Assembly: GCF_900091445.1 (NCBI RefSeq)
Contig: NZ_LT607733.1
Coordinates: 1,319,501-1,383,500 of the forward strand
DNA: 64,000 nt
From: Micromonospora echinofusca
Lineage (GTDB): Bacteria > Actinomycetota > Actinomycetes > Mycobacteriales > Micromonosporaceae
Reading direction: 5' to 3'
Positions 10,802 through 12,665 of this stretch are shown here, piece by piece. How positions within the stretch are numbered: the first letter of the stretch is position 1; every line of letters begins with the position of its first letter. The translations under genes and the position numbers were made by a program. The notes beneath the pieces are model-generated. The model saw nothing but the letters and a program-made list of their open reading frames with translations. It searched no databases and had not been told where the DNA came from.

Positions 10802-10914
10802 CGCCCGACGGCCGCCGTCGATGTAGCGCGGGCGACGGGCGTCACCCCGGGAACCTTGTGACGCCGGCCACCGGGGCAGGGGAAAACCCGTCACAGGAGC
10901 GTCGGCGGAGGTGC

Positions 10915-10920
10915 TAGCGT
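10915..10920 (+). promoter_or_regulatory. -10 element for the T-box transcript
   Basis: TAGCGT is placed so that transcription would start near 10927, at the base of the predicted Stem I of the leader. No clear -35 is visible. Confidence 0.4.
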
Positions 10921-10924
10921 GCCC

Positions 10925-11226
10925 GGCAGAGCTGTGACGGAGCCGAGTAGCGCCCCGACCCGCCAGTTGAAGAGAGCCGCCGGTTGCTGCGAGGCGGTCT
11001 GGCGCCGGGCGCGTGAAGACCCTCCCGAGCTGCGGGAAGAACGGCGGGTGGCCGATGCCGCGCGACTGCGCGGACGGTGCCTCGCCCAGTAGAGCCCGCC
11101 CGGCTGGCCCCGGTGAAAAGGCGACGAACGAGGCCCCCCGCCAGCGGGGGCGAAGGTGTGGTGGCACCGCGAGGTTTCCCGCTCGCCCACACCTCCCGGG
11201 GATCGCGTTGCGATTATCGAGGAGGT
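10925..11226 (+). promoter_or_regulatory. T-box riboswitch, Asp specifier (GAC), probably translational
   Basis: A complete T-box leader precedes the aspartyl-tRNA synthetase. Stem I pairs 10926-10929/11030-11033, 10939-10942/11022-11025, 10951-10955/11007-11011, 10961-10966/10999-11004 and 10977-10981/10993-10997. The distal part carries AGAGAG (10971-10976) and the loop GGTTGCTGCGA. AGTA (10946-10949) faces GTGAA-GAC, so the specifier codon is GAC (11018-11020), Asp. A G/C hairpin near 11135-11150 fits Stem III. The T-box AAGGTGTGGTGGCACCGCG (11153-11171) presents TGGC, complementary to a GCCA acceptor end, as expected for tRNA-Asp with G73. ACCTCC at 11191-11196 can pair either with the T-box helix or with the Shine-Dalgarno GGAGGT at 11221-11226, so uncharged tRNA would free the ribosome site. 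Confidence 0.9.
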
Positions 11227-11232
11227 ACCGCC

Positions 11233-12519
11233 GTGCAACGCATCCTTTCCACCCAGCTCTCCGCCCATGTCGGCGTGCCCGTCCGGATCGCCGGCTGGGT
11301 GCACCGCCGCCGCCTGCTCAAGTCGGTGGCCTTCCTGATCGTGCGGGACGCCGCCGGCCTCGCCCAGGTGGTGGTCGCCGACCCGGCCGTGCGCGCCGAG
11401 GTGGAGGCACTCACCGAGGAGACGGTCGTCGAGGTCACCGGCACGGTGGTCGCGAACCCGACGGCCCGCGCCGGGGTCGAGCTGACCGCGCCGACGGTAC
11501 GACCGCTCGGCCCGCCCGCCGTACCGCCGCCGTTCGACCTGTACCGGCCGGCGCTCACCGCGAGCCTGCCCACCCAGCTCGACCACGCTCCGGTGGCCCT
11601 GCGCCACCCGACCCGCGCGGCGGCGCTGCGCGTCTCGGCGGCGGCGGTGGCCGGCTTCCGGGCCGCGCTCGACGCCCGCGACTTCGTGGAGATCCACACC
11701 CCGAAGGTGGTCGGCTCGTCCACCGAGAGCGGGGCGAACGTCTTCGCGCTGGACTGGTTCGGCCGGCCCGCGTACCTGGCCCAGTCGCCGCAGTTCTACA
11801 AGCAGCTCATGGTCGGCGTCTTCGAACGGGTCTACGAGGTCGGGCCGGTGTTCCGGGCCGAGCCGCACGACACCGTCCGGCACCTGGCGCAGTACACCTC
11901 GCTGGACGCCGAGCTGAGCTTCGTCGCCGACCACCGGGACGTGATGGTCGTGCTGCGCGACACGCTGGCCGGGATGCTGGGCAGCGTCACCGAGCGGGCC
12001 GGTGCCGCGCTGGCCACGCTGGGCGTCACCGCCCCGGACGTGCCGGCGGAGATCCCGGCCGTGCACTTCACTGAGGCGCTCCGGATCGCGGGCGCGCCGG
12101 CCGACGAGCCGGACCTGGCCCCGGCGCACGAGCGGGCGCTGGGCGACTGGGCGCGACGGGAGCACGGCTCGGAGTTCCTCTTCGTCACCGGCTACCCGAT
12201 GGCGAAGCGGCCCTTCTACACCCATCCGGACCCGGCGCGGCCCGCGTACTCGAACGGGTTCGACCTGCTCTTCCGGGGTCTGGAGCTGGTGACGGGCGGC
12301 CAGCGGCTGCACCGGCACGCCGACTACCTGGCGGCGCTCGCCGCTCGGGGCGAGCCGGTCGAGCCGTACGCCGGCTACGTCGACGCGTTCCGGCACGGGA
12401 TGCCCCCGCACGGCGGCTTCGCCATCGGGCTGGAACGCTTCGTGGCCCGCCTGACCGGCGCAACCAACGTCCGCGAGGTCACGGCCTTCCCCCGGGACCT
12501 CCACCGCCTGACCCCATAG
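11233..12519 (+). CDS. aspS: Archaeal-type aspartate--tRNA ligase (possibly non-discriminating Asp/Asn)
   Basis: A 428-residue class II synthetase. The N-terminal OB-fold anticodon-binding domain (VPVRIAGWVHRRRLLKSVAF) leads into the catalytic core with QSPQFYKQLMV, motif 2 (VFRAEPHDTVRHLAQYTSLD) and motif 3 (GGFAIGLERFVARLTG). The length is that of the archaeal/eukaryotic AspRS; the usual bacterial enzyme is near 590 residues with an extra inserted domain missing here. The GTG at 11233 has GGAGG seven bases upstream. The His in GWVH fits non-discriminating enzymes that also charge tRNA-Asn, but this is only suggestive. It is probably a second AspRS in the genome. The T-box leader with an Asp specifier implies expression on Asp-tRNA shortage. 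Confidence 0.92.
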   Translation: MQRILSTQLSAHVGVPVRIAGWVHRRRLLKSVAFLIVRDAAGLAQVVVADPAVRAEVEALTEETVVEVTGTVVANPTARAGVELTAPTVRPLGPPAVPPPFDLYRPALTASLPTQLDHAPVALRHPTRAAALRVSAAAVAGFRAALDARDFVEIHTPKVVGSSTESGANVFALDWFGRPAYLAQSPQFYKQLMVGVFERVYEVGPVFRAEPHDTVRHLAQYTSLDAELSFVADHRDVMVVLRDTLAGMLGSVTERAGAALATLGVTAPDVPAEIPAVHFTEALRIAGAPADEPDLAPAHERALGDWARREHGSEFLFVTGYPMAKRPFYTHPDPARPAYSNGFDLLFRGLELVTGGQRLHRHADYLAALAARGEPVEPYAGYVDAFRHGMPPHGGFAIGLERFVARLTGATNVREVTAFPRDLHRLTP

Positions 12520-12604: not shown

Positions 12605-12665
12605 GGTGATCAAGAGGTTGTTGCCTTCGTCTTCGGTGTGTCGCGACCAAAACTTCTTGATCACC
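12605..12665. repeat. Gene-end hairpin, family B (variant)
   Basis: GGTGATCAAGAGGTTGTTG at 12605-12623 is inverted, with mismatches, at about 12645-12665 (CAAAACTTCTTGATCACC). The element lies between the convergent aspS and lipB stops and resembles the palindromes at 16694 and 39021. It may act as a bidirectional terminator. The flanking bases from 12520 to 12702 hold no gene. Confidence 0.65.

Follow-up and report, generated by a model that had tools for sequence, protein, structure and literature searches.

A predicted translational T-box riboswitch for tRNA-Asp upstream of a second, archaeal-type aspartyl-tRNA synthetase gene in Micromonospora echinofusca

In the soil actinomycete Micromonospora echinofusca, the gene for an archaeal-type aspartyl-tRNA synthetase (aspS2, encoding AspRS2) is preceded by a leader that, judged from its sequence and its conservation, is very probably a T-box riboswitch for uncharged tRNA-Asp controlling this gene. 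We hold with high confidence that the predicted switch acts on translation and governs a second AspRS, which is probably made when tRNA-Asp is uncharged. The analyzed stretch of DNA, hereafter the window, comprises 64,000 nt of contig NZ_LT607733.1, and all coordinates are given within it. L, G, C and f numbers are our own handles for loci, genomes, contigs and families.

Switches of this kind are known. T-boxes occur in front of ileS in Actinobacteria, where sequestration of the Shine-Dalgarno (SD) sequence was proposed (Seliverstov 2005, PMC1262725), and translational T-boxes are mostly actinobacterial with a shortened Stem I, a few being long (2020 review, PMC7583486). An earlier note on this DNA had stated that actinobacterial T-boxes are mostly of the ileS type; the papers name ileS as a target, but also the his operon of Corynebacterium glutamicum (PMC9413887), and the statement could be checked only in part. 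In Clostridium acetobutylicum, one of three aspS genes is under T-box control (Wels 2008, PMC2494555). The class II model was used over Actinobacteria for TBDB (PMC7778990), so the leaders described here may well be listed there already. The combination of such a switch with a spare AspRS was not found described: a literature search with a scope outside the contents of TBDB and most subscription papers returned no publication on an aspartate T-box in Micromonosporaceae.

Architecture and conservation of the aspS2 leader

The elements of the leader and its gene, all on the plus strand, are as follows.

10915..10920, plus strand: probable promoter -10 box TAGCGT (TANNNT), from TANNNT enrichment upstream of Stem I in relatives
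10930-11232, plus strand: predicted T-box leader, whole, with Stem I, Stem III and antisequestrator, then anti-SD and SD
10930..11030, plus strand: Stem I, long form, with lower stem GGAG/CTCC (RF00230 match 10931-11030; covariation)
10946-10949, plus strand: AGTA of Stem I, facing GAA at 11015-11017 (sequence)
10971-10975, plus strand: AGAGA of Stem I, together with an apical loop (sequence)
11018..11020, plus strand: predicted specifier codon GAC (Asp), directly after GAA (conservation in the family)
11031..11132, plus strand: Stem II and linker (alignment; differs between relatives)
11133..11151, plus strand: Stem III hairpin GCCCCCCGCCAGCGGGGGC (sequence; inside RF00230 match 11130-11190)
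11155..11193, plus strand: predicted antisequestrator, pairs 11155-11161/11187-11193 and 11169-11173/11182-11186
11162-11168, plus strand: antisequestrator bulge TGGCACC, with TGGC at 11162-11165 inside GGTGGCACCGCG
11191..11196, plus strand: putative anti-SD ACCTCC, sharing three bases with the antisequestrator and paired with the SD in the lowest-energy fold
11205..11212, plus strand: GCGTTGCG, 5' arm of a candidate start-codon helix, 8 pairs with 11234-11241
11221..11226, plus strand: SD GGAGGT (sequence)
11234..11241, plus strand: TGCAACGC, 3' arm of the candidate start-codon helix, covering T and G of the GTG start and codons 2-3
11233..12519, plus strand: aspS2, archaeal-type AspRS of 428 aa, GTG start at 11233 (NF003483, 1n9w, PF00152, PF01336)

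The Rfam T-box model RF00230 matches the leader at 10931-11030 (39.5 bits; E 2.1e-7 for the 451 bases searched, 7.7e-7 over the whole 7.0-Mb genome) and at 11130-11190 (20 bits), the second match standing in the correct order and on the correct strand relative to the first. At E<=10 these two places are the only ones in the genome. In this check, which the earlier note had proposed, both halves are matched in order, but with 39.5 and 20 bits the two pieces fall short of the gathering score (93 bits), and Rfam run at that level finds nothing in the window. The gathering score is a detection threshold of the model and is not counted here as a structural feature. The features that do define the structure are present, namely the AGUA/GAA loop-E pair with the specifier, the UGGN bulge and a codon matching the downstream gene.

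Comparison of homologous leaders agrees with this assignment. A Stem I covariance model was built from 28 long leaders, and the window, itself one of the 28, scores 106 bits with it. In an RNAalifold analysis of 28 representative long leaders, double changes were found in 19 of 26 Stem I pairs and in 6 of 12 antisequestrator pairs. The full Stem I layout with AGTA facing GAA that had been claimed earlier is therefore borne out, both by the RF00230 match and by covariation. The Stem II and linker region is variable among relatives and, in the alignment, almost missing from Actinoplanes-type leaders. In the 28 nt 5' of Stem I, TANNNT occurs in 81 of 83 long-form leaders and in 3 of 326 control stretches further upstream; a strict sigma-70 scan found no promoter site.

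Specifier codon, tRNA specificity and the AspRS2 enzyme

Relative to the RF00230 consensus, the GAC triplet is shifted by one base toward GAA, the alignment having a gap there, and the reading frame therefore needed testing: with the spacing of ileS leaders, the specifier would be a threonine codon, ACC or ACA. An early count of GAC and TGG[C/T] used patterns demanding both and was unable to show invariance; it was redone for GAC on all Stem I model sites of the host family, and for the bulge with an open pattern allowing any base after TGG. The Stem I model needs no GAC in a search pattern, yet it was built from GAC leaders and favors them. With this reservation, scanning of 150 family genomes gave 85 Stem I sites in 84 genomes, 79 of them followed on the same strand, within 600 bases, by AspRS2. 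GAAGAC stands at 80 of the 85 sites, including all 79 beside AspRS2 (the longer site of L317 was read by eye, and the window and two relatives were read separately). One GAAGAC site, in G433, has no AspRS2 in the match list, whereas five sites, none beside AspRS2, read GAAGATCA, which is the ileS register; an additional site in G007 likewise reads GAAGAC. Among the 83 long leaders, found with a pattern that demanded GAC, the following base is C in 74 and A in 9.

The zero-spacer aspartate frame is supported by a SerRS-type leader in the same register: L181, upstream of a serS-like frame in family f19 (TIGR00414, 45 bits for a 143-aa piece), has a long Stem I with GAA-TCC-A, whereas L182, upstream of ileS, has GAA-G-ATC-A with a one-base spacer. 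At a further locus (L177, 1500-1740) an orphan Ser-type Stem I with GAATCC runs directly into an apparent SerRS C-terminal tail, recognized by eye; a deletion within a former T-box/serS unit may have left this arrangement behind.

The bulge points to the same tRNA. TGGC can pair with the G73-CCA end (GCCA) of host tRNA-Asp, and the open pattern matched 77 of 80 loci (the best 80 of 360), with TGGC in 71 and TGGT in 6. A tRNA-Asp was readable in 11 of 12 genomes searched and has G73 in all 11; six of these have TGGT leaders, where G73 would form a G-U wobble pair. Both readouts proposed in the earlier note, GAC as specifier and TGGC as partner of tRNA-Asp, are thus upheld, with the correction that GAC directly follows GAA.

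The downstream enzyme is of the archaeal type, as had also been claimed. AspRS2 scores 524 bits with NF003483 (cut-off 353) and 335.3 bits with TIGR00458 (under the cut-off of 368.4), its best solved relative is the archaeal-type AspRS2 1n9w, presumably the Thermus thermophilus enzyme, and its only Pfam domains are the OB-fold (PF01336) and the class II catalytic domain (PF00152), which fits a class IIb AspRS of 428 aa without the bacterial insertion domain. Its NCBIfam type is named aspartate--tRNA(Asn) ligase. The His of the OB-fold motif GWVH and a loop AP are marks of non-discriminating AspRS; the His was read in 88 of 94 relatives (five unread, one Asn) and AP in 66 of 68 readable ones, in the window protein the His is retained, with R standing where the loop motif has P. 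The host genome holds three PF00152 proteins: AspRS2, a LysRS (TIGR00499 above cut-off) and a bacterial-type housekeeping AspRS of 601 aa (TIGR00459 above cut-off). Among the solved structures closest to this last protein are some that carry the name Asp/Asn ligase, which we take to be mycobacterial. With these three accounted for, no AsnRS was found in the genome, and one GatB is present, so Asn-tRNA is presumably formed by a non-discriminating AspRS and an amidotransferase. Since the T-box appears to read tRNA-Asp, AspRS2 is read as a spare AspRS, the need for which would be sensed through tRNA-Asp. Its gene has as neighbors one of the radical SAM type and one resembling lipoyl ligases, presumably lipA and lipB. 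Between aspS2 and the convergent lipB-like gene lies a near-perfect 61-base inverted repeat (12605-12665), which is single-copy in the genome and may therefore be a shared terminator-like hairpin.

Two other explanations of the leader were weighed against these data. It is very unlikely that the T-box reads a different tRNA, that is tRNA-Thr through ACC or ACA, or tRNA-Asn for a non-discriminating AspRS2 acting with GatCAB. The one-base spacing of ileS leaders, the NCBIfam name, the GWVH His with a mostly conserved AP loop and the lack of AsnRS in the host would fit such a specificity; against it, all three host tRNA-Thr carry T73 and not the G73 that TGGC needs (present in both tRNA-Asp and tRNA-Asn), GAC is constant while the next base varies between C and A, the SerRS leader shares the zero-spacer register, AAC does not occur at the specifier site, and the housekeeping AspRS is itself nearest to Asp/Asn ligases. 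The Thr and Asn frames were rejected on the discriminator base, the conservation of GAC and the Ser register. Still harder to credit is a decayed or chance T-box-like sequence: Rfam scores under the gathering level and broken leaders in a few relatives could be explained in this way, but compensatory changes across 28 leaders and the ordered set of elements could not.

Leaders and AspRS2 among relatives

The protein search gave 360 loci, of which the best 80 (79 from Micromonosporaceae and one from Nonomuraea) were taken; together with the window and 13 further loci, 94 leaders were read. Of these, 93 contain the T-box motif, and a search pattern demanding GAC recovered a long Stem I in intact form from 83; reading of the remaining 11 by eye found no long Stem I with a different codon. 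In five of these Stem I is shortened (L078, L082, L096-L098), L094 is a very short leader with GAC visible, and L093 is cut by a contig end with GAAGAC visible. Four Micromonospora leaders (L020, L041, L070, L077) lack Stem I, and L020 lacks the T-box as well. A palindromic repeat of the GTTAAGAAGGGGCCC type is present in the aspS2 leaders of these four loci, where it replaces Stem I, and of L010.

Within the host family, AspRS2 was found in 112 of 150 sampled genomes. In 33 of the 112 there is no Stem I model match beside the gene; among the 19 of these leaders that were read, 18 contain the T-box motif, L213 being the exception, and many of the 18 have a much shorter Stem I that allows UGAC and a purine to be placed in a hairpin loop (e.g., L207 and L210). 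Automatic folding of the shortened Stem I was inconsistent, and the GAC hairpins in these leaders were drawn by eye. Shortened forms occur in several genera.

In the class, AspRS2 of at least 62% identity was found in 14 of 246 genomes, host included, representing seven families, and the T-box motif lies upstream in 13 of the 14. In the fourteenth, G007, an intact GAC Stem I is located 105 bases before the first piece of a broken AspRS2; the two pieces of this aspS2 lie on contig C895 (273-539 and 3714-4739), with about 3.2 kb of unrelated DNA between them. A different archaeal-type AspRS, 40% identical and above both NCBIfam cut-offs, stands behind a GAC leader at L101 (G182), while the upstream stretches read for seven relatives of 33-38% identity (L102-L108) contain no T-box. 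Plasmid copies were found in Rhodococcus (L237, antisequestrator 63.8 bits) and Streptantibioticus (L238, 64.1 bits), the latter encoding a partial AspRS2 (residues 3-333) with a GAC Stem I of 101.7 bits. Phages yielded two distant matches of 29-30% identity.

Several known systems share parts of this arrangement. Actinobacterial ileS T-boxes likewise combine a T-box with a sequestered SD in place of a terminator, whereas the present leader is predicted to read tRNA-Asp rather than tRNA-Ile, has a long Stem I and carries the codon directly after GAA. A Firmicutes class I T-box on a Paraclostridium plasmid (L239, 6600-6825) also has GAC, TGGC and a downstream archaeal-type aspS, but there RF00230 gives 119.5 bits in one piece, the spacer reads GAA-A-GAC-A, and the AspRS is 38.8% identical. 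The gatCAB-aspS2 operon of C. acetobutylicum resembles the locus described here in that a T-box precedes an AspRS gene of the archaeal type and the bacterium has at least one other AspRS. Its T-box, described by Saad in 2012 and 2013, reportedly has Asn/Glu specificity and a terminator; the present leader, by contrast, has an Asp codon, is probably translational and precedes aspS2 alone, without gatCAB. The archaeal-type AspRS2 of Thermus and Deinococcus has been linked to tRNA-dependent Asn formation (PMC4206432). It is the same type of enzyme as the window AspRS2. We know of no T-box associated with the Thermus or Deinococcus gene.

Predicted switching and biological role

No intrinsic terminator-like site was found in 10850-11260, so control is probably translational. 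Unconstrained folding of 11147-11250 gave two near-equal structures, one of -43.7 kcal/mol in which ACCTCC pairs with GGAGGT and one of -43.4 kcal/mol that contains the antisequestrator; a bistable switch would be expected to behave in this way. An alternative SD-hiding helix together with the absence of a terminator is characteristic of translational (class II) T-boxes, to which the leader would belong; the translational design suggested in the earlier note, ACCTCC against GGAGGT, agrees with both results. In the proposed mechanism, uncharged tRNA-Asp would make two contacts: its anticodon would pair with the GAC codon of Stem I, and its GCCA end would pair with TGGC of the antisequestrator bulge. 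Bases 11191-11193 would then be tied up in the antisequestrator, ACCTCC could not fully pair with GGAGGT, and AspRS2 would be translated. Charged Asp-tRNA could not fill the TGGC pocket, in which case the anti-SD would pair with the SD and AspRS2 would be off.

A further helix, GCGTTGCG/TGCAACGC, could cover the start codon. It crosses the anti-SD/SD pair, so that both together would form a pseudoknot. Equivalent helices can be drawn in Nonomuraea L086 (AGGGATCA with TGATCTCT), L092 (AGGGATCAT with ATGATCTCT), L101 (GGATCAT with ATGATCC) and L214 (CGCGCCA with TGGCGCG), with different codons in each version and compensatory changes between lineages. Compared with shuffled leaders, 54 of the 92 distinct tails have the helix at p<=0.05, whereas 38 miss this level; in a Micromonospora subgroup an inserted hairpin takes its place. 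Swap controls, on groups preselected for having the helix, were clean for Streptosporangiales-type and L214 leaders on Micromonosporaceae starts (0/288 and 0/48 pairs) and between Streptosporangiales-type and L214 (0/6 and 0/6), but unclean for Micromonosporaceae leaders on foreign starts (150/288 and 37/48). Because of the preselection and the one-sided outcome, the start-codon helix in relatives is held as probable. A longer SD helix, with 7-10 pairs, occurs in some of the leaders that lack the start-codon helix (L096-L098, L199, L200, L212), yet L008, L053, L081 and L214 have both the start-codon helix and 8-10 SD pairs, which makes a trade-off between the two weak. The start-codon helix shares no bases with the antisequestrator, and both are formed in the -43.4 kcal/mol fold, so its release by tRNA is not evident.

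The mode of control and the role of the enzyme allow other explanations. Most T-boxes act on transcription (PMC7583486), and Rho-dependent control would be invisible in sequence; nevertheless, transcriptional control, by termination or Rho, is improbable given the missing intrinsic terminator and the SD complementarity that is kept in many relatives, with 8-10 pairs in L096-L098. Under translational control by tRNA-Asp, AspRS2 would serve as a back-up when the housekeeping AspRS fails or Asp-tRNA is short, a role that fits the gene content of the host (bacterial-type AspRS, LysRS, one GatB, no AsnRS). Rather than a general starvation back-up, AspRS2 may be induced to confer resistance to naturally occurring inhibitors of AspRS, with the T-box as a damage sensor. 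This role is compatible with a translational tRNA-Asp switch, and we give it appreciable weight, though clearly less than even. It would account for the patchy spread across the class, for AspRS2 copies on actinomycete and clostridial plasmids, and for a Macrococcus plasmid (L240, 3711-8278) on which the neighbors of an archaeal-type aspS are genes for an MFS transporter and a methyltransferase and an unknown gene; microcin C is an example of a known AspRS inhibitor (PMC7916415). It agrees less well with the presence of AspRS2 in 112 of 150 host-family genomes and with the surroundings of aspS2 in the window, where lipA-like and lipB-like genes enclose it and no biosynthetic cluster was seen to adjoin. 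In the literature covered, a search for publications on T-boxes combined with aminoacyl-tRNA synthetase self-resistance in Streptomyces found none. The Macrococcus gene group could itself be a small biosynthetic or resistance cluster. Doubtful, as a whole, is a more elaborate proposal: a pseudoknotted sequestrator would hide both the SD and the start codon, its start-codon helix would have been kept by compensatory changes across orders even where the N-terminus of the enzyme changed, and the spare AspRS under its control would be inducible and shield actinomycetes from AspRS inhibitors.

With the leader as interpreted here, a translational T-box for tRNA-Asp, the tRNA-sensing control known for ileS in Actinobacteria would reach to aspartate as well and, in one relative, to serine; the leader belongs to one leader family in which long and strongly shortened forms of Stem I precede the same gene. 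The spare AspRS to which it points is retained in many relatives, and uncharged tRNA-Asp probably turns it on. If AspRS2 resists natural AspRS inhibitors, the leader could be used directly to report such compounds in actinomycetes that produce antibiotics.
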